From an uncultured Blautia sp. (GTDB lineage Bacteria; Bacillota; Clostridia; Lachnospirales; Lachnospiraceae): a stretch of 55,912 nt of DNA. Positions 10,476 through 39,257 of this stretch are shown here, piece by piece. A model generated the notes under the pieces. That model was not told where the DNA came from. It ran no database searches and was given only the letters and a program-made list of their open reading frames with translations. Where the stretch lies: contig NZ_CAKRNY010000024.1 in the NCBI RefSeq assembly GCF_934371575.1, positions 1 through 55,912 on the forward strand. The letters run 5' to 3'. How positions within the stretch are numbered: position 1 is the first letter of the stretch; every line of letters begins with the position of its first letter. Position numbers and translations under genes: made by a program.

Positions 10476-10508
10476 TTTAAGACTCCTTTCAGTGTTGATT
10501 ACTTAATC

Positions 10509-10528: not shown

Positions 10529-10647
10529 CTAGTGTTATTTTCTCACAAAATCCCCATTTCGTCTAGTCATATTTTGCAAAAAATACGAAAAAATTGTCGG
10601 TACCATTTATAGGACTTCTATTGTATGAATTTTGTTTTCATGCTAAA

Positions 10648-10674: not shown

Positions 10675-10751
10675 AAAATACAAGCTATGCAAAGGTTAAA
10701 CAATTTGCAAAAATATCACCTGCACAACAGCAGATTCATTTCGGAGGACTT

Positions 10752-22518: not shown

Positions 22519-23286
22519 ATGAATCCGCTTCTGGAAGTAAAGGATGTAAGCCTTTCTTACCATAGCCTGTCCGGAGAGACTGCTGTCCTTTCTCATATAT
22601 CCTTTGAACTGATGCCGGAAGAGTTTCTTGCTGTCGTAGGGCCTTCCGGCTGCGGAAAGTCCACTTTACTGAATCTGATCTGCGGACTGCTGCCTGCTGA
22701 ACAGGGTACCATTCTCATGAATGGAGAACCCATTTGCAAAAACAGTGCCCGTATTGGATATATGCTTCAGAAAGACCATCTTCTGGAATGGCGCAGTATC
22801 TACCGCAATGTACTCCTTGGTCTGGAAATACGCAAAGAGCTTACTAAAGAAAATCTCGCGCACATAGACCATATGTTAAAGCTCTATGATCTGGACAAAT
22901 TCCGCAGTAATCGTCCAAGCCAGCTTTCCGGCGGCATGCGTCAGCGGGCGGCACTGATCCGGACTCTCGCATTAAGACCGGATCTTCTGCTCCTTGATGA
23001 ACCTTTCTCGGCTCTTGATTACCAGACACGGCTAAATGTAAGTGATGACATTGGAAAAATCCTGAAAACGCAAAAGAAGCCGGCAATTCTTGTCACGCAC
23101 GATATTTCTGAAGCCATCAGTATGGCTGACCGGGTACTGATTCTCTCACGGCGTCCCGCTTCTGTAGTAAAAATCGTGCCCATTAACCTGGATTTGAAAG
23201 ACCGCACCCCTCTTGCCTCAAGAAATGCCCCTGCCTTCAAATCCTACTTTAACCTGATCTGGAAGGAGCTGAATCAGAATGCATGA
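22519..23286 (+). CDS. ABC transporter ATP-binding protein, SsuB/TauB type
   Basis: ATPase of 255 aa of the nitrate/sulfonate/taurine/pyrimidine-precursor importer class. Walker A GPSGCGKST, Q-loop MLQKDHLLEW, signature LSGGMRQRAALIRTL, Walker B LLLLDEPF and the H-loop LVTHDISEA are all intact. It overlaps the permease gene by eight bases. No substrate-binding protein gene is adjacent, so the ligand cannot be told. GGAGG precedes the ATG. Confidence 0.92.
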   Translation: MNPLLEVKDVSLSYHSLSGETAVLSHISFELMPEEFLAVVGPSGCGKSTLLNLICGLLPAEQGTILMNGEPICKNSARIGYMLQKDHLLEWRSIYRNVLLGLEIRKELTKENLAHIDHMLKLYDLDKFRSNRPSQLSGGMRQRAALIRTLALRPDLLLLDEPFSALDYQTRLNVSDDIGKILKTQKKPAILVTHDISEAISMADRVLILSRRPASVVKIVPINLDLKDRTPLASRNAPAFKSYFNLIWKELNQNA

Positions 23287-24037
23287 ACCCTCGCATGCCC
23301 AAAAAGCATATCTTGCCCGGCAGAAAAAGGACCGTCGCCTTATTGTAAGCGCAAGGCTTCTGGTCTTTCTTGTTTTTCTGGCGCAATGGGAAATCCTGAC
23401 AAGAGTTGGCTGGATCGATTCATTTATCTTTTGCAGCCCCTCCATAATCTTAAAAACCTTCCTGGAAATGTCCCTGGATCAATCTCTGTTTATCCACATT
23501 GGCGCTACCCTGAAGGAAACTCTTCTCAGCTTTCTCTTTGTGGTAATATTCGGACTTGGCATCTCCATACTTCTATGGGCCTGCCCAAGGCTTGCCAAAA
23601 TAGTGGAACCATACCTGGTGATCCTGAACAGTCTTCCAAAATCTGCTCTGGCCCCCCTTCTGATCGTATGGCTGGGTGCCCGCCAGCGCACCATTATTGT
23701 AGCCGGTATGTCCGTTGCCATTTTCGGTTCTATTCTGAACCTTTATACCGGCTTTGGGGAGATCAGTCAGGAAAAATTAAAACTGATCCGAACCCTGGGA
23801 GGCGGCAAAAAAGAAGAACTGTTAAAAATTGTTCTGCCTTCTTCCGTCCCCCTCATTCTTGCAAATATGAAGGTAAACATCGGACTCTGCCTGGTTGGTG
23901 TGATCATCGGAGAGTTCATCGGAGCCAGGCAGGGACTTGGCTATCTGATCATATATGGCAGCCAGACATTCCAGCAGGTACGCATTCTGATCGTTTTTCC
24001 AAAGACTTCCACTGCCTTGCTTTCCAACTTTCTATAA
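23279..24037 (+). pseudogene. ABC transporter permease, 5' part, split by the integrated element
   Basis: The first 231 codons encode an SsuC/TauC-type permease with normal helices and the EAA-like loop (GGGKKEELLKIVLP), ending GLGYLIIYGSQTF. From 23972 the frame runs into unrelated DNA, adds 21 residues without a helix and stops at 24037. The missing last helix is found at 39153-39257. Joining the pieces at the shared TTC gives ...YGSQTF-KLTWVLMS... and a normal 265-aa protein. As it stands the protein lacks its last transmembrane helix and is probably not functional. Confidence 0.85.
23951..23992. other. left attachment junction (attL-like) of the element
   Basis: Permease codons end in TTC at 23969-23971. 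The next bases belong to the element and include CATTCTGA at 23983-23990, the mirror image of TCAGAATG at 39130-39137 at the right end. The two are symmetric about the TT of the core. Confidence 0.65.
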
Positions 24038-24077
24038 CGAAGTATTTTTGAATTCTGCTTCAAAACAAACAAAAAAA

Positions 24078-24575
24078 TTATATTCTCTCTTCCAGACAGT
24101 CAAACGCAATTCTTTCGTCGCCTCTTTCAAGATGAATAATGCCGCATTCTCTGAAACCAAATTTCTTAAGCGCTCCCTGCATTGGTTTGTTATCTTCATG
24201 GGTATCAATGCGCACATATCCGCTTTTCTCCATGCCGTAGGAAAAAGCAGCTTTCGTCACTCCTCTTACTTTCCCGTCAGAGGCCACCCTGTGAATAACT
24301 CCGTATGGATTCTGTATGCTGTGCCAGGTCCCATTTTCGATCACACGGTACGTGGGATCTTCCCCCATAAAAAATACAAATGTTCCTACGATTTTCCCGT
24401 TTTCCTCACACACATGGGAAATTCCCTGTTTTATATCATTCTCCACAGTAGAAACCTCTGGATAACGGTCTTCCCACTGGTTTGGATTACCGTTATTCTT
24501 CATAAATTCTCTTGCAGTTTTATATAAATTCAGAATCTGTGGAAGATCCTGCCATGTGGATTTTCGAATATTCAT
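24078..24575 (-). CDS. GNAT-family N-acetyltransferase
   Basis: Acetyltransferase of 165 aa with the GNAT fold: an N-terminal IRKSTWQDLPQILNLY, a central beta strand (GKIVGTFVFFMGED), the acetyl-CoA region (VASDGKVRGVTKAAF, a variant of RxxGxG) and a C-terminal NKPMQGALKKFGFRECG. The acceptor is unknown. It is the first gene inside the element, convergent with the broken permease, and GAGGAAC precedes the start. Confidence 0.88.
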   Translation of the reverse strand: MNIRKSTWQDLPQILNLYKTAREFMKNNGNPNQWEDRYPEVSTVENDIKQGISHVCEENGKIVGTFVFFMGEDPTYRVIENGTWHSIQNPYGVIHRVASDGKVRGVTKAAFSYGMEKSGYVRIDTHEDNKPMQGALKKFGFRECGIIHLERGDERIAFDCLEERI

Positions 24576-24638
24576 AAATATGTTCCTCGTATGCTTTCAT
24601 TCACTTATATGTTATTGGCAAATTTTTTCAAACACGTT

Positions 24639-26201
24639 TCAGTATAGCATATCGGAAATCTTCACTGCAATAATGGATTTTTCACCTGTTTGTACCAGTT
24701 CCAGGTGGTCTGGATAGATTCCGATCTTTTCTGTCTTTTCCAACAGACACAGGACACAGGCTTTTGAAATGGAATTATTTTGCCGCAGGAATTGCCGGAT
24801 CTCCCTGAGACGATTTTCCACTCTGTCATTCTGAACCGAATTTCCCGGATGTTCCTCTGTATTTGCCATGGTTTTCCTGATCCTTTTTTCTAATTTTCTT
24901 TGTAATTCACACTGTTTTTCCCTGAAAACGGATTCTTCTATGATTCCTTCCAGATATTTATCCAGAAGAAGCTTCTGCTGATGTTTTATCATATTCCCCG
25001 CCCGTTCCCAATTTTTTTGTTCTCTCTTTTCATATTCTTCCATGCATTCTTTCAGAATTCCCATAAAAGCCTCTGTAAGAACGGGCTCTGAAAATCTGAA
25101 TTCTGAATTTCCAAGAAGAGAAAAAAGAACTGACTCTTTTAAATGAATATTCTCACATCCCCCTGTCCTGCCCTCCCTTTTTCTTCCCTGTTCCAGATAT
25201 GTCCGGCATTTCCATTCATGGACATTATCCTTTTTCCGCCTTCTTGTTGTCCTGTAAAAAGGTGCACCGCAAAGACCACAAACCAGCTTTCCACTTAAGC
25301 TATACTTTCCTCTGTTTCTTCCATATTCCATTTTTACAGGTGGTTTATGTGATTCTCCTTCCAGATTATTCCTTCTTCTGTCAATTTCCCGGTTTGCAGC
25401 TTCCCACAATTCATCCGAAACTATAGCCGGAATGCGTTTCTCATAAATGAAAAATTGTTCTTCCGAATTTTTTATAGTCTTTCTTGTGTCAAAATCATAA
25501 TGTTTCTGATTCATCACCACAGTCCCCTTGTTAATGGGATTACGGATCATACGGCGAATATCTGAATCAGAAAAAGGACTTCCATTACGTTTTCGGATTC
25601 CTTCTTCCCGCAAAACCTGAGAAATCCTTCTGCTGCCCAATCCAGTGGCACAAAGCTGATACATTTTTCTTTTCACCGCTGCCTCTTCTTCCACAATTGT
25701 GAAACTTTTGTCGGCCATTTTCCGATATCCGTAAGTATTGGAAGTAAGCATCAGGGCGCTTCCTGTTTTCTGCCGGTTCCGGTGGGCATTGTTGATCTTT
25801 CTGCTTAACTCCCGGCTGTATTCCTCTGCCAGAATTGCCTTAATGCCGGTGATCAGTGCGTCATCCGTATTGTAAAAACGGTTTTCCAGGTACAGATACA
25901 GCTGCTTTTTACTTGTCACCAGACGATCAATAAAAATATACCAGTCGCGGGTGTTCCGCATCAATCTGTCCTGTGATTTTATCACCACAATCTCAAACTT
26001 ATCTCTAAGAAGATCTGCAAAAAGTCTCTGATATTGTTCTCTTCCCCTGGTACTGGTGCCGGAACGGCTTTCAATATATTCATCCTCCAATGACCAGTTC
26101 AGGCGGCGGACGCATTCTCTTGCCTCCGCCGCCTGTCTTAAAAGGGCGTCCCTCTGGCGCTCTTCCTCTGTGCTGCACCGGCAGTAAATTACCGCCCGCA
26201 T
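24639..26201 (-). CDS. large serine recombinase (resolvase/integrase family)
   Basis: Recombinase of 520 aa. The N-terminal resolvase domain starts VIYCRCSTEEERQ with the nucleophile Ser10 and Arg8, and has QDRLMRN in the catalytic core. A recombinase domain follows (NTYGYRKM... INKGTVVMNQKHY), then a zinc ribbon (CGLCGAPF ... WKCRTY ... GGCEN) and a coiled-coil C-terminal tail. All parts are intact. Located near the left end of the element, it is the obvious enzyme for insertion and, with a directionality factor, excision. It overlaps the small gene upstream by 13 bases. Confidence 0.93.
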   Translation of the reverse strand: MRAVIYCRCSTEEERQRDALLRQAAEARECVRRLNWSLEDEYIESRSGTSTRGREQYQRLFADLLRDKFEIVVIKSQDRLMRNTRDWYIFIDRLVTSKKQLYLYLENRFYNTDDALITGIKAILAEEYSRELSRKINNAHRNRQKTGSALMLTSNTYGYRKMADKSFTIVEEEAAVKRKMYQLCATGLGSRRISQVLREEGIRKRNGSPFSDSDIRRMIRNPINKGTVVMNQKHYDFDTRKTIKNSEEQFFIYEKRIPAIVSDELWEAANREIDRRRNNLEGESHKPPVKMEYGRNRGKYSLSGKLVCGLCGAPFYRTTRRRKKDNVHEWKCRTYLEQGRKREGRTGGCENIHLKESVLFSLLGNSEFRFSEPVLTEAFMGILKECMEEYEKREQKNWERAGNMIKHQQKLLLDKYLEGIIEESVFREKQCELQRKLEKRIRKTMANTEEHPGNSVQNDRVENRLREIRQFLRQNNSISKACVLCLLEKTEKIGIYPDHLELVQTGEKSIIAVKISDMLY

Positions 26202-26377
26202 CCTAAAGCACCTCTGTATTTCTTAATTCTTTCCAGCAAGTCCGCCCTTTCTGCCGGAGTGATCTGATTTTCTTCTGCCAGAATATCCACAAGCTTCTCC
26301 AGAACTACCTTTCCCTGAGTCCTGATAAAAGCTTCTTTTCTTGTTTGTGAAAGCTTTGACAGTTCATTCGCCTGCAT
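26189..26377 (-). CDS. small protein co-transcribed with the recombinase
   Basis: A 62-aa, mostly helical, charged protein (MQANELSKLSQTRKEAF...) with no family I recognise. Its 3' end overlaps the recombinase start by 13 bases, so the two are translationally coupled. By size and position it could be an accessory or directionality factor for the recombinase; that is a guess from context. Confidence 0.55.
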   Translation of the reverse strand: MQANELSKLSQTRKEAFIRTQGKVVLEKLVDILAEENQITPAERADLLERIKKYRGALGCGR

Positions 26378-26442
26378 ATGCCATCACCCATTGGTAACCC
26401 TTGTTTTATAATATGTCTCTTCTTGCTTCAATGTCACAGGCT

Positions 26443-26679
26443 CTAGCCCACTGGTGGTTTGTCCAGCATGTGCCATTCCCATTCCGGGTCGATCACCTGA
26501 TCTGCGGTTTCCAGAACTGCACAGTCCTTATCACAGCCATCCACTGCACAGACACAGGCCATTCCTGCTTTTTCCAAATGTCCCGGCACCCCTTCATAGC
26601 GCACACACCAAAGTCCACGATAATGCATTCTTTTGCACAAGCCATATTCATATTCGTATTTTACTGTTTTCTCTGACAT
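26443..26679 (-). CDS. small Cys-rich hypothetical protein
   Basis: A 78-aa protein with five cysteines (GLCKRM, LWCVRY, MACVCAVDGCDKDC region) and several Trp, suggesting a small metal-binding or compact domain. AGAGG lies at proper distance before the ATG. It sits between the polysaccharide operon and the recombinase genes, 23 bases after the DUF4832 reading frame. No function can be assigned. Confidence 0.5.
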   Translation of the reverse strand: MSEKTVKYEYEYGLCKRMHYRGLWCVRYEGVPGHLEKAGMACVCAVDGCDKDCAVLETADQVIDPEWEWHMLDKPPVG

Positions 26680-26702
26680 TATTTACCTCTTTTGTCACTT
26701 TT

Positions 26703-28073
26703 TTATTTTTCATTTTTCCACAGCACATTTCTGCCATCCTGATAAATACATTCCATCGCCAGTCTGATGTTTGGTTTTTCTGTCATAGGATCTTCAGCTC
26801 CAACAGACAGCGTATATCCATTTTCCAAAAGTGCCGGGACATCTTGGGTTTCAAATGCCGTCTTCGTAATAAGCCGGGTTTCCGGCAAAACAGAGGAAAG
26901 AAGCATATTCACCGTTACCTTCTCTGCCATTTTTCCAGAGGGATCCTCCAGATACAGATATACCGGCCAGTTTTGATAAAACGGGGCAACACCATCGTTA
27001 TTCCAGGTCAGCCACAAACAATCCTTTTCTCCCTCTTTTTTCCAGACAGCCTCTGAGATTCACAAACGGTATCCCATATTCAAAAGCACTTCTTCATACC
27101 CCTCTTTGTACTGGATATCTGCATATTTCGGTCCTAAAAATGTGGTATGGGATTTCCTGATCAGTTCCACAGTCTGATCCAGATCTGTCACCAGCAGCTG
27201 TTCCATAGAAACTGAACTGGTAAACTCGCCTCCGGAAGGAGCTGTCTTCCAAAAATCCGGCATCGCCTTCAGCGCATCTTCCTCTTCAGCCTGTCCGTAA
27301 TCTCCCCCTTCTTTTATCCAGGTCAGCCATTCCTGTGTGGACTCCTGATATCCGGTCATATCATTATACAACCCCATTCCATAATCTTCTGCAATATGGA
27401 ATGGTCTTCTCATAAGCATGGCAGTTCCCGGAAAAGCCTCCATCCAGGGTATGACATACTGGTTTCTTACAGCTTCTACAGGAATTCTCGTGATTCCCTC
27501 ACTGTAATTTACATGCCATTCTCCCCAATGTCCAAGGCTGCCAAGTTCAATATAACTGATCAGTCCGTCTTTTCCAAAATGCTCTCCAAGGGCTTTGATT
27601 GCCCGCTCATGCTCTTCTATAAAAATCTCATTGTTGTAATCCGGGGAATATCCTTTTCCATATTCACCGTCATACCAGGTTCCATCTTCCCCTGTCTTCT
27701 CATACAGCCACTTTGGGATATCCATATGTTTCTCATCACCGGGAATGTCACAGACAAAACGCAGGATCATGTGCCTGCCTTCTTCCTTCCATCTCTTTGT
27801 CTGGTTTTCCTCTTCTATAGCATTCCAGGCATAAACGCCTTCTTTTGGTTCCAATTCAGCCCAGGTAATATCCATATACAAAAGGGAAATGTCTTCTGAT
27901 ACTTCCTCATGCCAGGCACTTGGTGCATATCCCATAAGCGGATTTCCAAAAATCTCCCGGGATTTCTGAAAGCGCTTTTTACTTTCATTTCCAAAAGGCC
28001 ACCACCGATAACCTGCACCAGCTGCCAGAACGACTATCAAAATTAACAGCAGCACTGCCAGAACTTTTTTCAT
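26703..28073 (-). pseudogene. DUF4832-like secreted/membrane-anchored protein gene interrupted by TGA
   Basis: The first 337 codons encode an N-terminal signal anchor followed by a TIM-barrel-like domain of the DUF4874/DUF4832 type (FGNPLMGYAPSAW, YMDITWAELEPKEGVYAWN, GSLGHWGEWHV). A TGA at 27062-27060 stops it after NMGYRL. The same frame continues without a break for 118 codons with the expected C-terminal beta domain (WLTWNNDGVAPFYQNWP...) to a TAA at 26703. A C-to-T change in a CGA codon would explain it. No convincing SECIS stem follows the TGA. The gene overlaps DUF4956 by four bases and ends the Pel operon. A shorter product ending at 27060 may still be made. Confidence 0.75.
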
Positions 28074-28741
28074 CCGTGATATTCTCCATTATACTGAATC
28101 AGAGTTACATCCTCTATGTTTTCTATACTACGGATTTTTTCCATAAAGTCCATGTCATTTTGCCTGCAGAATAACTCTACAGCCATCTCTGTTTTTTCTT
28201 TTCGCATGGTCTTGGATTTGATAAAATATTTTCTTTTTCCAAAGCAGCGGATCACTTCATCTCCCGCCTGATCTCCTGTGTAATGGATCACTGCAATATA
28301 GATTTTTCCATTCTGCTGTTTGTGATAAAACAATACGATCATCAGGATCATGATCACAGCCGCAAGAAGCGCCAGCACATACATTCCCGCTCCCGCTGTG
28401 ATTCCTGTGGTGATCGCCCAGAACAGATACAAAAGATCCATAGGATCCTTAATTGCTGTACGGAAACGGACAATGGACAACGCTCCTACCATACCAAGTG
28501 AGATTACCACATTCGTACTGATTGCCAAAGTCACCATACAGGTAAGCACCGTCATTCCCACCAGGGTAACAGCAAATGTTCTTGAAAAAACAACTCCCGC
28601 ATAAAACTTCCGGTACACCAGATAGATCAGTGCACCCAGAAGAAGCGCTGCGAGCAGAGCACCAATAATTCCCGGAATATCATACTGAGTAAACGCTCCT
28701 GATTCCAATACAGACTTCTTTATCACATCTTTTACACTCAT
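28070..28741 (-). CDS. DUF4956 family membrane protein
   Basis: Protein of 223 aa with about four transmembrane helices in the first 130 residues, including the conserved ISLGMVGALSIVRFRTAIKDPMDL stretch of DUF4956 (split here by key residues VGALSIVRFRT), and a soluble C-terminal domain. DUF4956 genes often lie beside VTC-domain genes, as here. The function is unknown; a partner of the VTC protein at the membrane is a fair inference. It lies 47 bases after the VTC gene. Confidence 0.88.
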   Translation of the reverse strand: MSVKDVIKKSVLESGAFTQYDIPGIIGALLAALLLGALIYLVYRKFYAGVVFSRTFAVTLVGMTVLTCMVTLAISTNVVISLGMVGALSIVRFRTAIKDPMDLLYLFWAITTGITAGAGMYVLALLAAVIMILMIVLFYHKQQNGKIYIAVIHYTGDQAGDEVIRCFGKRKYFIKSKTMRKEKTEMAVELFCRQNDMDFMEKIRSIENIEDVTLIQYNGEYHG

Positions 28742-28788
28742 GAATGCATCCTCCCTTTTCTCTCGTCTGAATCTTGTATTTCTCTTTT

Positions 28789-29517
28789 TTATGTCTCACA
28801 CCAATACTCAAAGCCATTCCTGTATCTCGTTTTTTCATAACAGAGTACATACTTGGATACTGCTGTAAATTCCGCTGATGGCGGAGGCAGGATATCCCGC
28901 AAAAGCTGCGGCAGCATCTGGGTGAATTTTACTTCCATAACCAGCTTTCCCGGTTCCAGAACCGATAAGGCAGGCAGTGTACTGTCAAAAATGTTATAAC
29001 TGCCTACGGCAGCCCTTACATCCATATCAAACGTGATCCGCACAGTTCCCTCATCCATAATCCATGGTACCCGGTCATAATCTACAATAGTTCTTGGACG
29101 CATCATATTGCAGGTACACTCAACATAAAACTCCTGACAAAGCGGATACTGGCTGTGAAGAAGAAATTCATACTCTCCATTCAGGATTTTCTCCACTTCT
29201 GCCCTGGTAAGAGGTGCACTTTCTTTGTAAATATAGCTGCCAAATTTCTTTTTTCGCTCTAATTTTATAAATTTGTCATTATTGTTATAAATCCGGATCC
29301 TGTATTTTTTTCTCATAAGAACACCTGCTTCTTTTTCCTCGTAAGCGCTGTTCCAATAATCATCAAAATACAGACTTCGGATAAAATATCCCTGCTCCCC
29401 TGCATGTGGATCCGGCCGCAAAAATGGCTTCAGCCTGAGAGTGAGCATTTCTTTTTCACTGGTACTGATCAGATATTTCCATTCATTTCGAAATGCTTCC
29501 CTGCTTTTATTCCTCAT
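28789..29517 (-). CDS. VTC-domain (polyphosphate polymerase-like) protein
   Basis: Protein of 242 aa with the VTC tunnel-fold pattern of alternating basic strands: RNEWKYLIS, IRSLYFDD, RKKYRIRIYNN, KLERKKKFGSYIYKES and EVKFTQMLPQLL. Yeast Vtc4 makes polyphosphate from ATP; bacterial stand-alone VTC proteins are less clear. Conserved Arg/Lys and Glu of the tunnel are visible. It overlaps cotH by 11 bases and so belongs to the Pel operon. Confidence 0.88.
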   Translation of the reverse strand: MRNKSREAFRNEWKYLISTSEKEMLTLRLKPFLRPDPHAGEQGYFIRSLYFDDYWNSAYEEKEAGVLMRKKYRIRIYNNNDKFIKLERKKKFGSYIYKESAPLTRAEVEKILNGEYEFLLHSQYPLCQEFYVECTCNMMRPRTIVDYDRVPWIMDEGTVRITFDMDVRAAVGSYNIFDSTLPALSVLEPGKLVMEVKFTQMLPQLLRDILPPPSAEFTAVSKYVLCYEKTRYRNGFEYWCET

Positions 29518-31306
29518 AAATATCTTCCTCGATCTGCCCGTCTTCCGTTACATAGATACATTTCATACCATAATGCTTTCCTTCATCTGTAACATAATAA
29601 TCAAAGGCATCCTGTGCGTCTCCTTCTTCATTGAACGCACGCACACGGATGAAATACTGGCCAGCTTCCGGAAGGGAAACCTGGGTCTCCGGGATCTGAA
29701 GCCCCTCCTGTGAATAGATCACATCCTGAAACAGATAATCCTTTGCCACTTCCACAGAATAGGTAATATCTTCTGCATCAAAGGAATACGAAGGATCCCA
29801 TGTTATTTTCATTTTCTCACCATCAGTCTCAGGAACACCAATATAAAATGGCATAGGCTTACTAAGACTCTCGACATACAGCTGATAATTCTGTTCTATT
29901 TCTTTTGGGAGTGCAGCAGCAATCTCATCATACTGTTCGCTAGTAAGGGGTGCATAAAACTCATCAGGCATCTCATAAAGATAGGACTTCACCACAGTCT
30001 TATAATTTTCGATCATGGTGCCCAGTCTCTCTTCGCTGAGATATTCTTTCAGATCCAGAATCGCTTCATCCAGCTTTTGCCGAAAATGATCTGATTTCAG
30101 GCATCTCTGGAATAATAAATTTCCCCAATAGTTGCTGATGCCAGATTCCCAGCTTTTATGATCACTAAAACCAGTCATATTATATTCTGACCTCATCAGA
30201 CAGTTATCATTATCCCAAGGGATAAAATACCAGGTATCCGAATTCAGCGGGCTGTATAAATACATATTTCGATTCTGGGTATCCACATTTCCCATCAGTA
30301 TCTGAAAACCCATCCAGTATGTGAGATTTTCCTCATCAAAATAGTCTTCCAGAATTGTATCAATAGGGATGCTATAGTCATTCACCGCATCCAGCATTTG
30401 GATCAGCTTACTGTTATCTGTATTTCCCTTTGTTTCCAAAAGTTCTTCAAAAGCAGTGCTGTCATAGGTTGGATCACTCTGAAGCTTTATCACATCTTCA
30501 TTTCTGTAAAATTCAAAATAGTTTATTTTGTACAGCTGTCCATTGGAATCCAGTCCATGATTCTTCAATCCAGTCTTATTTAACTGTTCTACCTGTGTAT
30601 ACAGTCCATAATCCTTAAATTCGCTGTCAGCAGAACCGTCCGTAGTGTCTTTTACATACAAATGTACAAACTGGGTTCTCAGACCGATCAACTGCGGAAT
30701 GCCCTTCAGCAGGTCATACGCAAGCTTGTTTCGGAATCGCATTCCTTCTGTCATATGCTTGTTCAGATTGATGGTTCTCTGCCCACGCCAGGTCCCTTTA
30801 TTCTTCTTCAGTTCGATCTTATAGTTTTTCTGGGCATTTCGGCTTGAAGTCTGCCCGCGGATCTGTACCGTGGCATTTGGAACATTTTCACCATATCCTA
30901 CCATTCCTTCTACGGGACCGTTCTCATCTCCCACCTGTAAAAGTGCAGCTGTCTGATACCGTTCTACTCCCATCTCTTCATAATCATAAGTAGAATAGCT
31001 GTTGATTTCCTTCCAGGTATGGTCTGTATTTTCTGAAGAATTCCCTTTTGAAACAGTCAGATACATGGTAACCACGCTGGTATCCTCATCGTTCTCATAA
31101 AGACTGTCTTTATCCCGCAAATGGACCTGATCGATTTCCTGGGTATCTGCCTTTTTTACCTCCTGGGATTTTACCGTTTCCTCTTCTGTTTCTATATTTT
31201 CCTTTGCCTCTTCTGACACAGACTCCGTCGTTCCGATACAGCCTGTGCACATGGAAATGATCATGATCCCGGCAAGAATACATGCTGGTTTTCTATATTT
31301 TTTCAC
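29507..31306 (-). CDS. CotH-family protein kinase-like lipoprotein
   Basis: Protein of 599 aa. A lipoprotein signal (hydrophobic core then MCTGC near residue 20) predicts anchoring on the outer face of the membrane. A Glu/Ser-rich linker follows, then a CotH domain with RGQTSSRNAQKNYKIELKK, the NKLAYDLL segment and FIPWDNDNC. CotH proteins are atypical kinases that phosphorylate secreted proteins in sporulation; the target here is unknown. A fibronectin-like segment near the C-terminus (about 500-575) may bind carbohydrate or protein. It overlaps pelG by four bases. Confidence 0.88.
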   Translation of the reverse strand: MKKYRKPACILAGIMIISMCTGCIGTTESVSEEAKENIETEEETVKSQEVKKADTQEIDQVHLRDKDSLYENDEDTSVVTMYLTVSKGNSSENTDHTWKEINSYSTYDYEEMGVERYQTAALLQVGDENGPVEGMVGYGENVPNATVQIRGQTSSRNAQKNYKIELKKNKGTWRGQRTINLNKHMTEGMRFRNKLAYDLLKGIPQLIGLRTQFVHLYVKDTTDGSADSEFKDYGLYTQVEQLNKTGLKNHGLDSNGQLYKINYFEFYRNEDVIKLQSDPTYDSTAFEELLETKGNTDNSKLIQMLDAVNDYSIPIDTILEDYFDEENLTYWMGFQILMGNVDTQNRNMYLYSPLNSDTWYFIPWDNDNCLMRSEYNMTGFSDHKSWESGISNYWGNLLFQRCLKSDHFRQKLDEAILDLKEYLSEERLGTMIENYKTVVKSYLYEMPDEFYAPLTSEQYDEIAAALPKEIEQNYQLYVESLSKPMPFYIGVPETDGEKMKITWDPSYSFDAEDITYSVEVAKDYLFQDVIYSQEGLQIPETQVSLPEAGQYFIRVRAFNEEGDAQDAFDYYVTDEGKHYGMKCIYVTEDGQIEEDIYEE

Positions 31307-32763
31307 TTTTTCTGACTCCTTTCCAGTTTTTCACTGAGAAAATAACCAAGCCTGGAAAATTTTCCTGTTTTCTCCTGTATCACAACAGGCTGCACACTCA
31401 AAATATAATAGGGCAGCCGCTTTGTATAATAGTCCAGACGAACTACTGCAAGAAGAAAAAACAACGCACTGCCTGCCAAAAATCCAAAGCCATAATATAC
31501 CTTTGGAAAAAGCAGGGAAATTACCGTAAATATCACAGTTCCTCCTGCAAAACACCCGGAAGCAGCCAGGGCTCCTTTATAATCTGTAAAATATAACAAT
31601 AAAAGAAGCATGGTATTTGCCACTGCATAAATTCCGTAGCCTACACAAAGAGTTCTGAAATATCCTTCCATAAGGTCATTAAAACCAAGGGGCAGGTATT
31701 TCAGAATCACTCCTCCCAGAGAAATGGCCAGTGCCGTAGCAAGAAGCTGCTTTAAGGCCGTGTATTTTAATTCCACGTTTAATACCTTTCTCATTTCCTC
31801 TCCTGCCTGTGTAATATCTCCCACAGCACCTTTATCATTAAATAAACTGTAATAGGTTTTGTATTTAGGATAAAAATTCACTTCCACAGAAACCACAAAA
31901 TTTACCGTAGTTACCAGAATCGTAAGAAACGCTACAAGAGCAGGCACATCGTGATAAGGCGCACCCACAAAAAGTCCCTGCACCTTCACCTGAAGCGGTC
32001 CGATCCACATGATCACCAGATGGGCAAACAAACCAATATTAATAAAAAGTCCTGTAAATGCAAGGGGCAGAAACTGATCCACCCATCTAAGAAAAAGAAA
32101 AGCTCCCTTTTCTCCCTGGGGAAAATACTGATATAAAAGAATTACGTCCCACAAAAGCATTACCCCGTAACCGATCACAACTGCAAGCAAAAGTGCTTCC
32201 ACATGGGGAATTCCAAGCCATAGCAGGATCCAGCCGGATAAAAAGGTAAGCGCAATGGAAGCTGTAAAAGACAGCAGGATTCCTCTGTAGTCCTTGATCG
32301 CAGTAAGATAACTCATTGCATTCCAGGTAACGATCAGTTCTCCAAAAAGCCACAGACACAAAAGTCCATCCACAAGTCCCGCCCCGGAAAAAACAAGGAA
32401 AATCCCGTACAGGATTCCGCCTGCTGCCAGCATGATTCCTGAAGATCCCCAGAAAGAAGGTAAAACCATATCATATTTTTCCTCATACAACATATCTGCA
32501 ATAAACCTTGTAACTACCATGGACAAAAAACTGGTAACTGTCAGGGAAGACAAAAGAGTGTAAGTGATCATGCACACAAGCAGCTCCCGGCTGTGCCTGC
32601 TGCCTCCTGTTTGATCACAGAGATACATCACTCCAAGAAGCAGCAGGATTCCAAGAAGCATAGGACCGGTACACACCACTCCCGCATATCCGTAGGCTCT
32701 GAAGGAGGCAAACAGTCCTGGTTTTTGAAACAGTTTTTTCAGTTCAAATCCGATTCCAGCCAT
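31303..32763 (-). CDS. pelG: Pel exopolysaccharide transporter PelG
   Basis: Membrane protein of 486 aa with about twelve helices, of the PelG family in the MOP flippase superfamily. The N-terminus MAGIGFELKKLFQKPGL is diagnostic for PelG. It is thought to export the Pel polymer made by PelF. It overlaps pelF by 20 bases. No outer-membrane PelB or PelC is present, as expected for a Gram-positive cell. Confidence 0.93.
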   Translation of the reverse strand: MAGIGFELKKLFQKPGLFASFRAYGYAGVVCTGPMLLGILLLLGVMYLCDQTGGSRHSRELLVCMITYTLLSSLTVTSFLSMVVTRFIADMLYEEKYDMVLPSFWGSSGIMLAAGGILYGIFLVFSGAGLVDGLLCLWLFGELIVTWNAMSYLTAIKDYRGILLSFTASIALTFLSGWILLWLGIPHVEALLLAVVIGYGVMLLWDVILLYQYFPQGEKGAFLFLRWVDQFLPLAFTGLFINIGLFAHLVIMWIGPLQVKVQGLFVGAPYHDVPALVAFLTILVTTVNFVVSVEVNFYPKYKTYYSLFNDKGAVGDITQAGEEMRKVLNVELKYTALKQLLATALAISLGGVILKYLPLGFNDLMEGYFRTLCVGYGIYAVANTMLLLLLYFTDYKGALAASGCFAGGTVIFTVISLLFPKVYYGFGFLAGSALFFLLAVVRLDYYTKRLPYYILSVQPVVIQEKTGKFSRLGYFLSEKLERSQKK

Positions 32764-34168
32764 TCTTTTCCATCACCTCCTCATACAGTTCCCGATACAG
32801 ACGGATCATACGCTCCTGCCTATAATAAGCATTTACCCGATTCTGACCATTTTGGCCCATGCGAAGCCGTCTGCTTCTGGATTCACACATCTTCTCCATA
32901 GCAAGAGCCAGTCCGTCACGGTACATAGGCGGTACGTAATACCCAGCCTTGCCGTACATATCCTCTTCCTTTCCCTCCAGAAGTTCCCGGCAGCATCCCA
33001 CATCTGTAGTAACACAGGGACGCCTTGCAGCAAAGGACTCCAGTACAGACAAAGGCTGCCCTTCTGAAATACTGGTAAGAATGGTAAAATCCAGTTTTTC
33101 CATATATTTTACAATATCCACCCTTCCCGTAAAAATAATATTTTCTAACCTCAGCTGTTTTACCAGCTCATAGCATTCCTGCGCATATTCCTCATCGTCA
33201 ACACCACCCATAATATGAAGTCGCACATTTTTCACATGGGCAGACAGCTCAAAAAAGGCATAGATCATAGTCTTGATATCCTTGATAGGTGCAAGCCTTA
33301 CCACCGCCCCAATATCCACCCAGTCATCTTCCTCTTTCAGGGGAATTCCCGACAATCTGTCATAATCGATGCCGTTTTCAATCACTCTGCACTTTTTAGG
33401 GGAGCACCCCATCTGGATTTGGGTCCGCATCGCATTTGTAAAAAGACTGGTTACACGAAATGACCTTTGATAGATCATATCTGACAGCATATAAAAGAAG
33501 GAAATCCATTGTTTCTTAAAAGATGAAGCCACCCATTTGGCACGTATGATTTCTTCCTCTCTTTCTCTTGTATAGATTCCATGTTCAGTAAGAAGAACAT
33601 CCTTTTTGTATACATAACCTCCAAGACAAGCCAGAAGTCCGCCATAGCCGGTACATATGGCGTGATATACGTCCGCCTTTGGAACCTCACTTCCCATAAG
33701 ATACAGTACGGGAAGAAGCATGGAGCGCATAGTATGAAAAGCATCTGCAAACGCAATATACGGATATTGCTCCTGACAGATTTTCATAAGAAGATCCAGG
33801 AACGTCTCACTTTTCAAAAAAGCCATAGGATTTAAGTGTTTGTCATGATACAGGGAAAACAGAGTCTCCCAGTCCGGTCTTCCCATCTGCATCAGCTCAC
33901 TTAAGCTTTTTAATTCTTTTTCTGAAAAAACATGGGACATTTTTCCCTTTTCTTTTACTTTTAGGGCATCATCCAGAAAAACCTCGTAAACCTCAACAAC
34001 ATTCTTTGGAAGCTCATAGACAAATTTTCCCCTTTTTTCTGCATTTGCCCCTATGACCCATAGCACAAATTCATGCTCCTGCATCTGATTAATATACTGA
34101 TGCATCCATGTGGAAACACCACCAAATACATAAGGATAACATCCTTCCAAAACCAGACAGATTCTCAC
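32744..34168 (-). CDS. pelF: GT4 glycosyltransferase PelF
   Basis: Cytoplasmic glycosyltransferase of 474 aa that polymerises the Pel backbone (in Pseudomonas from UDP-GalNAc). The N-terminus RICLVLEGCYPYVFGGVSTW is the PelF signature. The GT-B C-terminal domain has GAVVRLAPIKD and an E-x7-E motif (SEGQPLSVLE). It lies 24 bases after the DUF2194 gene and overlaps pelG. Linkage to PelD, PelE and PelG supports the name. Confidence 0.94.
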   Translation of the reverse strand: MRICLVLEGCYPYVFGGVSTWMHQYINQMQEHEFVLWVIGANAEKRGKFVYELPKNVVEVYEVFLDDALKVKEKGKMSHVFSEKELKSLSELMQMGRPDWETLFSLYHDKHLNPMAFLKSETFLDLLMKICQEQYPYIAFADAFHTMRSMLLPVLYLMGSEVPKADVYHAICTGYGGLLACLGGYVYKKDVLLTEHGIYTREREEEIIRAKWVASSFKKQWISFFYMLSDMIYQRSFRVTSLFTNAMRTQIQMGCSPKKCRVIENGIDYDRLSGIPLKEEDDWVDIGAVVRLAPIKDIKTMIYAFFELSAHVKNVRLHIMGGVDDEEYAQECYELVKQLRLENIIFTGRVDIVKYMEKLDFTILTSISEGQPLSVLESFAARRPCVTTDVGCCRELLEGKEEDMYGKAGYYVPPMYRDGLALAMEKMCESRSRRLRMGQNGQNRVNAYYRQERMIRLYRELYEEVMEKNGWNRI

Positions 34169-34192
34169 TGTTTTCTCCTTTTTTCTGCATTT

Positions 34193-36031
34193 TCAATACT
34201 CAATAGTCACATTTTCCTGCTCTGCACTCAGCAGATACAGATTTCCTGCCGCCTGGGTTAATTTTCCCCCGGTCACATGCAGCGGGGTTCCTTTATTCAG
34301 TCGCACCATCAGATATGCCTGGTCGTAAAAATTTCCCAGATGAAGATGTACCTCGTTGTCTGTGATCTCTTTCTCCACAGTCAGGGCACTATATCTTTCA
34401 ATGGCTCCGGATAACTCAGAGCCTGTAAGATTTCGAAGTGCCGGAGCGGCTTCATTCATCCAGGTCATATACTCATCCAGCCGTTGTTTCAGCTTTTCCC
34501 AGCCAAGGGCAGCGCCTCTGTCCTCATCCAGAAGGTCATCCGGATGCATAAAATGTGTATTCACAAAATGCATATTCAGCTCAGACAAAGCTGCCATCTG
34601 CATATAAGCATCAATGATAGCACCGGAAATAATACGAGGCTGCTCCACAATTTTATCTTCTGCCACCTCAAATTCCTGAACATAGGCATATTCACCTGAG
34701 AAATAGTTGCTTGCAATAGTGCGGATCTGTGGGTACATAGAGCCAAGCAATGCCCTCCCCTCTTCTGACAGCACATTCGATGGTGGAACATAAACAGACA
34801 TTTCCGTTTCCGGAAACATTTCCTTTCCAAAATTGATCAGCTCTTTCATCCCTTTTTCCATAGCAGAAAGGCTTGTCCAGGTATTATATGGAAGTACCTC
34901 TCCATAATCTGTGTTTGACAAGCTCAGGGGCTGATGATTATAGCCGTGATAGCCCAGTTCACCGCCCTGATGCAGGATCATATTTCCAAAATACTGGAAC
35001 CGCTGTACATCTTCCTGGCGCTGGGTTTCTCCATCTGTGTCATCCTCATAATTCTCGATCATAACCCCCGTATATTTCACATTGTGCTTTGCTGCAAGGG
35101 CGATCATATCCGGCCACCAGATATTGGTATAGAAATCTGCAATGCTGGTTCCATAATCCCTTTTTACATAGGTTCCATCTCCGCTTGGGACAGGAGATGG
35201 AAAATCATCCAGATAAAAAACGGAGCCATTGATCACCGGATATACCCCAACATCTGTTAAAAGGCTGTAGGACGCAGCAAAAAATCCTCTGCAGGCCTTT
35301 TCACATAGTCCAAAATTATCTACTACAAATTTTCCTTTCCCATAATCGTTCTCCCAGATCAGGGGAACTCCTGAAGGGTCATCCGCCCAGGCATATACCT
35401 TTGCGTGCTGGGTTAATTCCACAGCCCATGCAGATTCGTAGGCATCTGTGATCTCATAGGCCTGTCCTCCTCCGATAAGAAAATCTTTATCAAAATAAAT
35501 ACTATTCACCATAGTATCGGTATAGCCTGAAGATGCAATTCCAAGCTTCTGCTCGATAACCGATACATAAGTATCCTTTTGGAGAGTGAGGGCAAACATG
35601 GCGCTGCCGCCTGCTTTTACCCAGTCACTGATTCTTAAAACATCTTCTTTTAAAGGATTCAGATCACTCAAAAGAACCACCACGGTCTCATATCCAGACA
35701 GATCCGCAGGAATACCCTCACAGCTTGCATCTATCAGGTCCACCCCCACTTTCATATCCTGAAAGATCTGTTCAAACTGAGTCCATGCCATGGTGCTATT
35801 CTCCTGGTTCGTATCCATAAGGACAAGGCAGGTGGATTTTAAATCCTTCACCGCCTCCTTTTTCGTAACCAGCTTATCTGTATCCAGATAACTTAGGGGT
35901 TTTGCACTTTCCCGATAGGACAAACCGGAACGTTCCGCAAACAAAATTGCTCCTATAAACAAAAAACAGCCCAGAATCACCAGAATTCCTTTAAATTGAA
36001 AATTTTTAATCTTTTTTATCCAATCAGCCAA
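34193..36031 (-). CDS. DUF2194 protein, PelA-deacetylase-like
   Basis: Protein of 612 aa with one N-terminal signal anchor (about 15-35) and a large extracellular part. Residues near 100-260 look like a glutamine-amidotransferase/BPD-like sensor fold. The region from about 265 carries NodB-deacetylase-like metal motifs: YLDDFPSP (about 270) and GYHGYNH (about 358), then NTHFMHPDD. By position it equals the PelA deacetylase-domain protein of Gram-positive Pel clusters, which would expose amines on the polymer. The glycoside-hydrolase half of PelA is missing, also as in those clusters. It overlaps pelE by 16 bases. Confidence 0.87.
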   Translation of the reverse strand: MADWIKKIKNFQFKGILVILGCFLFIGAILFAERSGLSYRESAKPLSYLDTDKLVTKKEAVKDLKSTCLVLMDTNQENSTMAWTQFEQIFQDMKVGVDLIDASCEGIPADLSGYETVVVLLSDLNPLKEDVLRISDWVKAGGSAMFALTLQKDTYVSVIEQKLGIASSGYTDTMVNSIYFDKDFLIGGGQAYEITDAYESAWAVELTQHAKVYAWADDPSGVPLIWENDYGKGKFVVDNFGLCEKACRGFFAASYSLLTDVGVYPVINGSVFYLDDFPSPVPSGDGTYVKRDYGTSIADFYTNIWWPDMIALAAKHNVKYTGVMIENYEDDTDGETQRQEDVQRFQYFGNMILHQGGELGYHGYNHQPLSLSNTDYGEVLPYNTWTSLSAMEKGMKELINFGKEMFPETEMSVYVPPSNVLSEEGRALLGSMYPQIRTIASNYFSGEYAYVQEFEVAEDKIVEQPRIISGAIIDAYMQMAALSELNMHFVNTHFMHPDDLLDEDRGAALGWEKLKQRLDEYMTWMNEAAPALRNLTGSELSGAIERYSALTVEKEITDNEVHLHLGNFYDQAYLMVRLNKGTPLHVTGGKLTQAAGNLYLLSAEQENVTIEY

Positions 36032-36912
36032 AATTCCAGTGCCTCCTTTCCCTTTGAGGAAAGATAAATGTGTTCCTCTTTCAAGGCTTTTAAACTTTCT
36101 TTTATTTCCCTTCCCATTTTCCGCTCTGCCAGATATCTGATTTTCCAGATCCAGTATTCTTCACTTCTGTGCCAGTTCTGATCCATTATTTTCAGTGTTT
36201 TTTCTGCCAATGCAAAGTCACCTTGTACCATAAGATTTTCCATCAGACACACGCAAGTGTGAAGATTTACCTTTTGCCCAAGCTGCTTTAACAAAAGCTG
36301 TGTATACTGTTTTCTCTGGATCTGTTCCATCTGTTTTTCCGTAAATCCCTGACTCAGATACTCTTTTAAAAAGTCACAGTATTCTTCCAGAACAGCAGGA
36401 TCATCCGGTGCATCCATATATTTCTTCTCAATTTTCTGCTGTCTGTAGTCATATTCTTTAGACAGCTCCACCATGGCTGTGATTGCATAGTGAACCACCT
36501 CCACATCCTCGTTCATACGTGCCTGCTTTAATAATTCTACATATTCCCCCGGATCATCGTTCAGAATATTCATGATCAGTTCCCGTCTTTTCCCAGGATC
36601 ATTCAAAAGAAGCGCCTCTTCTAAAGGAACTACATCCCTGTCGTTTTCCTCTCTCGTCTGAAACATGTTTTTATAAATTTCTTCATTGACTCTAAGCTTT
36701 TCCACCCCTACTTTTTTCACCTGATCCGCCCCTGAAAAAATCTGAAAATGGATCAGCAGTACACATACAGGTCCCCAGACCGGTACAAATAAAGCAAGCG
36801 GCAGCATATACATCTTTACTTTCAAAAGACCGGTACGTATTCCAAGCCAGATCAGTATGCAGATTACCATATGTATCATAAGAGCAATCAATCCAATTGC
36901 GATTTTCATCAT
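36016..36912 (-). CDS. pelE: PelE-like membrane protein
   Basis: Protein of 298 aa with two N-terminal transmembrane helices (about 5-25 and 33-57) and a helical, TPR-like cytoplasmic part rich in Lys and Glu. PelE couples PelD to the synthase complex in Pseudomonas. Recognition rests on the two-helix plus TPR layout and on its place between pelD and the PelA-like gene. Its start overlaps the pelD stop (ATGA). Confidence 0.82.
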   Translation of the reverse strand: MMKIAIGLIALMIHMVICILIWLGIRTGLLKVKMYMLPLALFVPVWGPVCVLLIHFQIFSGADQVKKVGVEKLRVNEEIYKNMFQTREENDRDVVPLEEALLLNDPGKRRELIMNILNDDPGEYVELLKQARMNEDVEVVHYAITAMVELSKEYDYRQQKIEKKYMDAPDDPAVLEEYCDFLKEYLSQGFTEKQMEQIQRKQYTQLLLKQLGQKVNLHTCVCLMENLMVQGDFALAEKTLKIMDQNWHRSEEYWIWKIRYLAERKMGREIKESLKALKEEHIYLSSKGKEALEFWLIG

Positions 36913-39023
36913 GCTTTCTCTCCTGCCAGCTCTTTTTTATCCGGGGAATCAATCACTTTGCCCTCAAACCCTTTTCTTTCCAGACGTTTCAGAATAAGCG
37001 GCAATGCCTTGTCGTCTGCCTGTGTAAGAATCAGATACAATTCTCCCTCTGAAGAAATACCGCGTACATCATTTTCTCTGATACAGCCATCCAATGCCTC
37101 GTCTGCCTCTTCCACAGTCATATTCGTAAACTTCAGTTTCAGAAGAACGTAGGAAGCCATCTTCTGCTCACGCATGGAGTGCTGAAGCTCCAGGCTTTTT
37201 TCAAAATATTCCGGCTTCAGGATTCTTGTCTTTTCCACATATTTCTTGTATTCTGTGGCCTCCTGATATTCAAGGGCACGCAAAAGTGATGTTTCTACCA
37301 GACCGCATAAGATCTGAAACAGATTCATATAATATAACGTCAGCTGCTCATTCCCAGCTTTCTGAATGCAGATAAGCATTACCAATTCTCCATTCCGATG
37401 AATACCAGCCATATACATAGGATAACCGCTTACAAATTCCCGGTTCGCCCATACCTGCCCCTTTTCCAGAGTCTCCATCGCAAGGGTATACGCACTTAAT
37501 TTAATGGAAGCCTTGTACATTCCCTGTGCCTTGGGCGATGCAGCTTCCAGTCTGCCATAGCCGTTTTTCTGGCCAAGGGAATAAAAAGCAAAGGTTTCGT
37601 TCTCCAGAACCTCTTCCATAATGTGCATGGTCTCAATAAACAGCTCCTGAGGCTGTACAATATCCAGTTTTCTGGTAATATCAAAAATTTTACCAAAACT
37701 GTCCTTGCTTCCCAAAATCTGTTTTTTGTAGTTTCTTTTATCCTGAAGAGTTTCCTGATACAATTCCCGAATAAAAAGATATTTTCCCCGGATCAGCTGA
37801 TTTTCCTCGGTGATAAATTCCTGATTTTCTTTATTTTTCATACGTACATAGCCGCACACGGCACCTGTCGCAAAATAAAAAATGAAAGGAATCCAGTTGA
37901 CAGGCTCATAAAAAAGGGTATACCACTTTGTTCCCTGACTTTCATATGCCAGGAGCAAAGATACACCTTCTGCTGCAGCTCCCGCAATCCCATATCCCAA
38001 TCCATAAAGACTTCCAAATAAAACGATGAACACAAGCCGCAGATCGATCATTTCAAACTGGGCCTGATTTCCCAGAAGACGCTGCAATAACTCAAATCCC
38101 CAAAAGCAGATCACAAACTCAAATATCCGCAGAATTTTTTTATTGCGGTTCCAGAGACTGGCAAGCCAGTTCATTTTTTCACCGTTATTTTTGGTGTTTT
38201 CTTTATATTCTTCATACATTTCCGAAATATGTTCCAATATAGAAATCTTTGGAAACCAGTTATAATTTATGCGAATCTGTTTATCATCTTCTTTGATTCT
38301 TTCTGTTACAGCACTGCTTTTATAGACAATGGAAACCGAAGAAAGGATTTTTTTCAAATTTTCCGCCATCTCCTGAAAATGGATACCAAATACATCTGGC
38401 ACGTTCAGGATTTCTTCTTCATCATTCCAGTTATCATAAAGCTTGTACATCAGCTCTGCAAGATCTATAGGATATAAAAAATAAGCATTCTGGTCTGGTG
38501 CTTCCTGAAAAAACAGCTTCTGATTCTCCTTTGCAGCTTCAAAAATCCGGTAAAAGAAATCTTTCTTGTAAATCCCGGAGCACAAATAAGGCGTCCGCAA
38601 TATTTTCACCCTCAAATCATACAGCTTCGCATAACGTCTGCACACATCTTCTGCATTCTCTACCAGCAAAGTCTTGCCTGTAGGCATATCGAACATTCCT
38701 TCCGGCCCTGTTACATAGAGAAAATGGCGCTCCTGTCCTTTCCTGCAATATTGCAGAATCTTGCGAAGATTTTCCGCCTCTCCTTCTAACGCTCCGTGAA
38801 AGGTCAGATAATTGGAAAAATAAACCACAGCCTCAAATTCATAAGTTCTGAAAATATCCTCCAGTTCCTTTTCTGATTCCGGAAATGGTCTGGAAATAAT
38901 TCCTTTTCTTCGCACTGTCTTCAGCATTTTATTTCCCAGCACCACCACCTGGCATTCCGGAAATGCTTCCTCTATAAATTTCATTGTCACATAACCGGTA
39001 TTTCCGGCCAGCAAAACCTTCAT
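36909..39023 (-). CDS. pelD: PelD-like c-di-GMP receptor with N-terminal SDR-like domain
   Basis: Protein of 704 aa. Residues 1-270 resemble an NAD-dependent epimerase/SDR fold (LLAGNTGYVTMKF) with a poor Rossmann glycine pattern. About 295-395 are membrane helices. A coiled coil then leads to a GAF domain (about 440-570) and a degenerate GGDEF domain (about 590-690). The GGDEF sequence is reduced to SEGEL (658-662), so no cyclase activity is expected. R649-E-N-D652 lies exactly five residues before it, the position of the c-di-GMP inhibitory site used by PelD as receptor. It is the first gene of the operon, with AGGAG before the ATG. Confidence 0.9.
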   Translation of the reverse strand: MKVLLAGNTGYVTMKFIEEAFPECQVVVLGNKMLKTVRRKGIISRPFPESEKELEDIFRTYEFEAVVYFSNYLTFHGALEGEAENLRKILQYCRKGQERHFLYVTGPEGMFDMPTGKTLLVENAEDVCRRYAKLYDLRVKILRTPYLCSGIYKKDFFYRIFEAAKENQKLFFQEAPDQNAYFLYPIDLAELMYKLYDNWNDEEEILNVPDVFGIHFQEMAENLKKILSSVSIVYKSSAVTERIKEDDKQIRINYNWFPKISILEHISEMYEEYKENTKNNGEKMNWLASLWNRNKKILRIFEFVICFWGFELLQRLLGNQAQFEMIDLRLVFIVLFGSLYGLGYGIAGAAAEGVSLLLAYESQGTKWYTLFYEPVNWIPFIFYFATGAVCGYVRMKNKENQEFITEENQLIRGKYLFIRELYQETLQDKRNYKKQILGSKDSFGKIFDITRKLDIVQPQELFIETMHIMEEVLENETFAFYSLGQKNGYGRLEAASPKAQGMYKASIKLSAYTLAMETLEKGQVWANREFVSGYPMYMAGIHRNGELVMLICIQKAGNEQLTLYYMNLFQILCGLVETSLLRALEYQEATEYKKYVEKTRILKPEYFEKSLELQHSMREQKMASYVLLKLKFTNMTVEEADEALDGCIRENDVRGISSEGELYLILTQADDKALPLILKRLERKGFEGKVIDSPDKKELAGEKA

Positions 39024-39152
39024 ATATCTTAGCTCCTGTTATCATTAGAATTACTTCTGCCGTTTAGCATACCTTATTTTGTCCAAATTTCCTACTAAAT
39101 TTTTTTTAAATTTTACTGACTTTTTTCTTTCAGAATGTGTTTTCACTTCTTC
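39024..39152. other. upstream region of the Pel operon and right end of the element
   Basis: An AT-rich leader of 129 bases. It must contain the operon promoter, but I see no clear -35/-10 pair (a TATGCT near 39061-39066 is the best -10 candidate). It has no c-di-GMP riboswitch signature. TCAGAATG at 39130-39137 is one arm of the attachment-site dyad. Confidence 0.5.
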
Positions 39153-39168
39153 AAGCTTACCTGGGTGC
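39130..39168. other. right attachment junction (attR-like) of the element
   Basis: Element DNA up to TTC at 39150-39152 is followed by AAG CTT ACC TGG, which continues the permease frame broken at 23971. Confidence 0.65.
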
Positions 39169-39257
39169 TGATGTCCATTGTAATTTTATGTGTGATTGCC
39201 ATGATCCTTTATGGCGTGCTCTCCTTTATTGAAAAACATTATTTAAAAAAATTATAG
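39153..39257 (+). pseudogene. ABC transporter permease, 3' part (last transmembrane helix)
   Basis: Thirty-four codons (KLTWVLMSIVILC...IEKHYLKKL) and TAG form the last helix and tail of an SsuC-type permease. They are the missing end of the gene broken at 23971 and are followed by that operon's terminator. Within the element a chance ATG at 39134 opens this frame as a 40-aa ORF, but it has no ribosome site. Confidence 0.8.

Follow-up and report, generated by a model that had tools for sequence, protein, structure and literature searches.

Islands that gather at a single chromosomal gene, such as dusA, and serine-recombinase elements that split the gene in which they reside, such as the skin element of Clostridioides difficile, are already known kinds of element. 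The locus described here lies in a stretch of 55,912 nucleotides from an uncultured Blautia sp. (contig NZ_CAKRNY010000024.1; the whole stretch is termed the window), where the gene for an ATP-binding cassette (ABC) importer-type permease is split by a block of DNA that carries Pel-type polysaccharide genes. We consider it very probable that this block belongs to a family of islands found at one fixed codon of the permease gene, likely placed there by a recombinase and likely disabling the importer for as long as an island is resident.

Known systems and how the locus compares

The staphylococcal cassette chromosome islands (SCC, including SCCmec) are serine-recombinase (Ccr) islands that use one fixed site near the 3′ end of a gene and carry variable cargo, as is likewise the case here. 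Unlike in SCC, the window recombinase falls far below the cut-offs of the CcrA, CcrB and CcrC models (55–71 bits vs cut-offs of 700–900), and the target is an ABC permease gene, not rlmH, and is disrupted. The integrases of the dusA-associated islands are reportedly of the tyrosine type and belong to a separately described family, whereas the recombinase here is of the serine type. The dusA islands otherwise share with the present ones a single protein-coding target, a dedicated integrase family, mosaic cargo and occurrence in many species, and their excised forms and rebuilt junctions have been detected by polymerase chain reaction (PMC4482086). They target the 5′ end of dusA in Proteobacteria (PMC4482086), whereas here it is a site near the 3′ end of a permease gene that is entered, and the gene stays cut. 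A comparable case is the sigK skin element of C. difficile: the element encodes a large serine recombinase and splits its gene in frame, this recombinase (CD1231) needs a 72-aa factor (CD1234) to excise, and the gene is rebuilt when the element leaves (PMC5025042). Skin, however, concerns one sporulation gene and its excision is proven (PMC5025042), whilst the islands described here are numerous, vary in cargo and interrupt an importer-type gene, and their excision is proposed from comparison of sequences.

IME_Rho_tet resembles the present islands in its gut Firmicutes hosts, serine recombinase, inverted-repeat ends and insertion into open reading frames (ORFs), but it carries a relaxase and mobC and has MAFF2 ORFs as its most frequent target (116 of 256 sites; PMC12904643); no relaxase was seen in the window island using Pfam. 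The cargo of the window island is like the Gram-positive pelDEA(DA)FG clusters of clostridia and streptococci, with which cotH, polyphosphate polymerase, DUF4956 and DUF4832 genes are contiguous (PMC7112168). Unlike in that description, a recombinase island carries the pel genes here; neither ‘mobile’ nor ‘horizontal’ appears in the main text of that paper. The combination of many islands, one importer codon, a gene left cut and one recombinase clade with a companion ORF was not found in searches of a collection of open-access papers, a scope that lay outside preprints, most subscription papers and supplements. The main text of a survey of recombinases (PMC10083194) is without the terms permease, Lachnospir- or Blautia, although its tables may well contain this target.

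One codon of the permease gene is interrupted in many genomes

The permease ORF of the window (23279–24037, plus strand, 252 aa) is native as far as Phe231 (TTC, 23969–23971), after which it runs through 21 codons of foreign DNA. The native 5′ part (23279–23971, 231 codons, PF00528) follows the gene for its partner, an importer-type ATPase (22519–23286, plus strand, PF00005), which is matched by the NCBIfam models for taurine/nitrate and other importers, every one of them below the equivalog cut-off. The severed 3′ part (KLTWVLMSIVILCVIAMILYGVLSFIEKHYLKKL), recognised through its similarity to the tails of relatives, is found at 39153–39257 on the plus strand and comprises the missing 34 codons, in frame, and a stop; it encodes the last helix. 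The earlier note on this DNA had placed the cut at 23971 and the missing codons at 39153–39257, and both positions were confirmed, with a gap of 15,181 bp between the two halves. It had also predicted a restored permease of 265 aa, and indeed 231 and 34 residues add up to the length of intact relatives, for example that of Blautia schinkii (L010).

Relatives of the permease were sought in contigs from one genome per species, using the 231-residue part as the query, and the best 80 of 178 relatives, mainly from Lachnospiraceae, were kept; the query part is 60–87% identical to these. In 68 of the 80 loci the permease runs on into the conserved tail, and so the uninterrupted gene that the earlier note had proposed should be sought does exist and the refuting condition set in that note does not hold, whilst in 12 it is cut. 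The break in all 12 cut loci falls at exactly the codon interrupted in the window. A further 18 cut fronts were located via the recombinase, bringing the number of cut genomes besides the window to 30, and the claim that a discrete island splits the gene is borne out.

The cut state is accompanied by a particular recombinase. At E ≤ 1e-60 it was found in 11 of the 12 genomes with a cut permease, with one match in each and all matches at E ≤ 1e-117, as against one of the 68 genomes with an intact permease, where the match is 36% identical (Fisher p 1.4e-11). A second sample, which partly overlaps the first, consisted of 397 genomes from the family of G001; the permease was matched in at least 206 of these and the recombinase (E ≤ 1e-70) was found in at least 29, the latter count being a lower bound because up to three candidates per genome were scored, a limit that was counted against the island-family reading. 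The recombinase and a permease half lie on one contig in 20 of the 29, and in another (G184) the cut permease is on a different contig. One genome (G192) holds a cut and an intact copy of the permease, but as the copies are just 88.5% identical this is not one strain caught in two states. At L149 (G267, 15265–15348) the severed tail and the right island arm are inverted and lie 1.3 kb from the cut front, which may be a rearrangement or a misassembly.

The probable attachment site and the ends of the islands

The two junctions of the window island share a core. On the left, the crossover dinucleotide TT (attL core, 23969–23970) is followed by the left island arm (23971–23992), one half of an imperfect palindrome (TCAGAATG reversed); on the right, the other half of the palindrome (39128–39149) precedes the second crossover TT (attR core, 39150–39151), all on the plus strand. 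TT stands at both junctions in all 18 islands for which both ends were read. The earlier note had given TTC as the only shared sequence, which holds locally but not for the family, since the left codon is TTA or TTG in 6 of 31 cut loci (L070, L077, L078, L124, L126 and L148); these variants indicate that the third base is derived from the island and that the core exchanged is TT.

The empty site points to the same two bases. The intact locus of Extibacter muris (L056) and the cut locus of G449 (L156) match over both flanks (92.6% over 2,447 bp and 88.2% over 220 bp), and in the intact genome these flanking matches have exactly 2 bp in common; in three further cut/intact pairs the shared stretch, located identically, measured 5, 11 and 12 bp. 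The palindromic nature of the ends around TT was quantified across the 18 islands, where 266 of 396 positions match; when the ends of different islands were paired in 1,000 shuffles, the mean was 186.0 matches and the maximum 221. These arm statistics cover only the 18 cut loci with both ends found. Among those left out were L149 with its inverted tail, the rearranged L150, the contig-cut L018, L042/L091, L046 and L077/L084, as well as L157, L158, L162, L163, L165 and L166, in which one end lies beyond the fetched stretch or the contig. A scan of viral contigs with an attP-like pattern gave seven matches, none of them near this recombinase, and these were treated as chance. The islands were also considered as elements that restore their target gene upon entry, as at tRNA genes, and this was rejected, since the end that each island contributes to the permease reading frame bears no relation to those contributed by the others.

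The recombinase lineage and its companion

The window island encodes an intact large serine recombinase of 520 aa near its left end (24639–26201, minus strand; Resolvase, Recombinase and zinc ribbon domains), as the earlier note had reported, and this is likely the integrase. Every one of the 18 complete islands has a gene for a large serine recombinase. One cluster of recombinases, which takes its name from Dorea formicigenerans, represents 61 contigs. On a tree of 41 recombinases (40 labelled rows; L102 was given no label, and L084 and L096 were labelled ‘permease’ through a cut permease on another contig) the trait of sitting in the permease changes just twice, and three recombinases that form a nested branch (L114, L116 and L118) lack a link to the permease, having apparently switched to another target. 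By comparison, the cut or intact state needs at least 23 changes on a tree of 106 permeases, of which at least 16 are forced by well-supported branches; this tree was a quick one with long-branch warnings, and L123 was dropped from it, being from the same genome as L016. Shuffled labels gave a mean of 26.8 changes, and 19 of 500 shuffles were as low as 23; the cut state is therefore mildly clustered on the permease tree. Two changes of site set against at least 23 changes of permease state describe an old recombinase lineage that has been mostly faithful to its site, in hosts that often gain and lose islands.

An origin from a phage or plasmid was considered and set aside. Relatives occur in 379 phage and 210 plasmid records, nearly all of them less than 60% identical; the best of the phage records (MT836003.1) turns out to hold a cut permease locus, and among the plasmids the closest relative reaches 35% identity. 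A scan of viral contigs with the recombinase, which reaches close relatives only, found none. The phage record (L169; ‘Bacteriophage sp.’, from human faeces) contains at 7776–10898 a cut permease, a mini-island and a shortened recombinase, and may be bacterial DNA.

Serine integrases usually need a directionality factor for excision. Directly upstream of the recombinase in many loci is an ORF of 41–82 aa with a shared core, which mostly ends within 25 bases of the recombinase start; in the window it encodes 62 aa (26189–26377, minus strand), overlaps the recombinase start and has no credible Pfam family. Alignment of 26 such ORFs, which were picked by eye and not thinned for relatedness before they were split, contains one invariant column, and models built from half of them (13) recovered the remaining 13 among 1,230 ORFs in three of three random splits. 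The models also found up to seven further loci, each with the ORF beside a recombinase, that of L089 being downstream of it. In all, the companion ORF was found in 33 of 41 recombinase loci, and none was found in the other 8. By its conservation and position, it could be a candidate excision (directionality) factor, for which the 72-aa factor of skin offers a lead by analogy.

Weighing the readings of the locus

The recurrence of the break, the co-occurrence of the recombinase, the TT cores, the palindromic ends and the empty site together mark these islands out as a family that encodes serine recombinases and is attached at a single site inside an importer-type gene; the Pel genes are local cargo. 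Under the mechanism proposed, the circular form of an island would recombine its palindromic attP with attB in the permease gene, the small companion ORF would act as the directionality factor that lets the island leave, and departure would rebuild the 265-aa permease exactly. Several observations weigh against the island-family reading. No excision event was observed, and one genome with a cut permease (L018) is without the recombinase at E ≤ 1e-60, its contig ending 246 bp past the break. Of the 29 recombinase genomes in the second sample, 8 hold a relative that is unlinked to the permease; six of these are 34–37% relatives, and closer ones are in G144 (41%, with an intact permease) and G408 (50%, in which the permease was not found at E ≤ 1e-50). 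The recombinase is shortened or broken in some loci (L113, L115 and L119), and in G387 (L150) an intact permease stands beside an island whose recombinase is broken.

The arrangement in G387 (L150, 3156–4111 and 10389) runs from the intact permease through a terminator-like hairpin and a 37-bp remnant of the old permease end to the island, after which comes a second, near-identical permease tail. This genome was considered as a case of a gene-restoring island and is better read as a repair, the remnant of the old permease end bordering the island. Excision is thus not the sole way back to an intact permease, and the repair suggests that an intact permease is worth having.

An assembly artefact or chimaera is hardly credible as an explanation of the island: many of the comparison genomes are metagenome-assembled, but 18 islands of separate assemblies agree in the codon that is broken, in the TT core and in having palindromic ends, and the locus most like the window (L001) is colinear with it in both flanks and in the parts of the island that L001 retains. 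It is also very unlikely that the cut permease still works through separate synthesis of its whole last helix, within a peptide of 40 aa begun at an in-frame ATG (39135). That codon lies inside the right arm (the peptide would span 39135–39257) and has an equivalent in half of the complete islands (9 of 18), and the recognised tails are open; it is missing from the other 9, no ribosome-binding site was seen before the ATG of the window, and the ends newly acquired by the left-hand half bear no relation to one another, being 1–45 residues long, or in L129 without a stop in the 50 codons read. What remains is how the islands behave once in place, and here, on balance, we lean towards ordinary selfish islands that are one-way in practice, entering a dispensable importer gene in repeated recent insertions that are followed by loss of the lineage or by repair through DNA uptake. 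The 23 or more state changes on the permease tree, close cut/intact pairs such as L056/L128 (95.7% nucleotide identity) and the intact permease of G387 beside its 37-bp remnant of an old attL all fit such a history; against it, purifying selection acts on the target gene (dN/dS 0.019–0.100 across 44 intact pairs, with a median of 0.065), and the recombinase clade that has stayed faithful to this gene is deeply diverged.

A reversible on/off switch, in which an island exits and re-enters in the course of one lineage, controlled by the companion ORF, and toggles the importer against the cargo, much as in the skin element of sigK, appears possible but doubtful. One argument for it is that no decay is seen in the severed halves that could be recognised, which fits either recurrent insertion or repeated excision: there are no stops and no gaps in 31 cut fronts (one partial), and all 24 recognised tails are open, although decayed tails would be missed because the tails were found by similarity. 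The companion ORF adjoining the recombinase also speaks for a switch. Front dN/dS is 0.074 between the window and L001 and 0.089 in the other close cut–cut pair; the former lies inside the range of the intact pairs but exceeds 77% of the 26 intact pairs with similar dS. If the window and L001 inherited their island jointly, as their colinearity and sister recombinases would allow, the untranslated tail should have decayed: in 20,000 neutral simulations, 24 of 33 residues without a stop were kept in none at a distance of 0.5, 0.8 or 1.09, and in 0.9% at a distance of 0.3. The simulation is decisive only if the insertion predates the split of the window and L001, and with a fixed site two separate insertions of related islands look like joint inheritance and explain the intact halves equally well. 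Indeed the island genes are slightly more diverged at four-fold sites than most flanking genes (identity 0.38–0.46 vs 0.41–0.66), and no circular or empty molecule from the same strain was seen in an analysis confined to other genomes. We are therefore confident of the island family and regard the switch as possible. In its widest form the switch would span gut Lachnospiraceae, with swappable islands that silence the importer and exit via a tiny excision factor, so that cells in a population trade a nutrient for a trait, with biofilm formation, sugar uptake, iron uptake and defence as the traits at stake; this is put forward tentatively.

Cargo of the islands

Complete islands range in size from 2,344 to 15,181 bp, and nearly all blocks at the permease site differ in cargo. 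The cargo includes EAL/GGDEF and DUF362 proteins (L003); a sensor kinase together with genes classed as ABC-type by similarity (L011); a DUF3990 protein and a HUMPS-family enzyme along with a sorbose-type phosphotransferase system (PTS; L060); FecCD and a periplasmic binding protein (L067); an amidase and, next to it, a protein of 1,430 aa that belongs to no family (L070); AAA and DUF3226 proteins (L078); a xanthine/uracil-type permease (L155); a galactitol-type PTS (L156); an ATPase/nuclease (L159); and a kinase with an FtsX-type ABC protein (L160). L014 carries an ABC operon interpreted as polyamine-type, along with a HipA-like protein and an exchanger. This operon (L014, 10694–20051) resembles one beside the intact permease of Blautia caecimuris (L021, 10926–14684), as if, to judge from the sequences, the island had captured neighbouring chromosomal genes. 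In L158, L162 and L166, whose right ends were not found, HerA/TraG-like ATPases, YqaJ or RecT are encoded, some of these genes lying 14–15 kb from the break, where they may fall outside the island. Such conjugation-type or phage-type genes, in the longer stretches found at the permease site of a few genomes, may point to the source of movement between cells for islands that lack transfer genes.

The island genes of the window are all on the minus strand. To the left of the recombinase is a GNAT acetyltransferase gene (24078–24575, PF00583), which is also present in the island of L001. Beyond the companion ORF, a DUF4832 gene (26703–28073) is in two pieces (26703–27017 and 27060–28073), both below the Pfam cut-off, with a stop between them; this interruption, near 27060, may reflect either an error in sequencing or a genuine frameshift. 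Genes follow for a DUF4956 protein (28070–28741, PF16316), a VTC-domain protein of the polyphosphate polymerase type (28789–29517, PF09359) and a CotH kinase-family protein (29507–31306, PF08757). The Pel genes reported in the earlier note were upheld by PelG (31303–32763; PF16933, E 6e-140) and the PelF glycosyltransferase (32744–34168; PF11997, with the NCBIfam equivalog NF038011 above its cut-off). The role of the remaining Pel-type proteins is assigned by position: a DUF2194/DUF2334 protein in the place of the PelA deacetylase (34193–36031; PF09960, PF10096), and proteins in the places of PelE (36016–36912) and PelD (36909–39023, 704 aa), neither of which has a family match, with no solved structure matched by the latter. 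No relaxase or type IV secretion gene was matched by Pfam among the 14 leftward ORFs and ORF pieces of the window island, and an Rfam scan of the window gave nothing at gathering thresholds.

L001 has the GNAT gene, the recombinase and remnants of the Pel genes in common with the window. At 10019–11449 of L001 the gene in the PelD position is fused in frame to the end of the DUF4832 gene, and most of the Pel block has apparently been lost there through this in-frame fusion.

Implications

If the island-family reading is true, it would name a common integration hotspot of gut Firmicutes, a predictable place to which Pel-type genes and other traits would travel as cargo. Recombinases with a known attB and an attP deduced from the island ends would be candidate tools for the genetics of Lachnospiraceae, and the undecayed severed halves of the permease gene would offer a directly testable case of reversible gene splitting outside sporulation and prophages.

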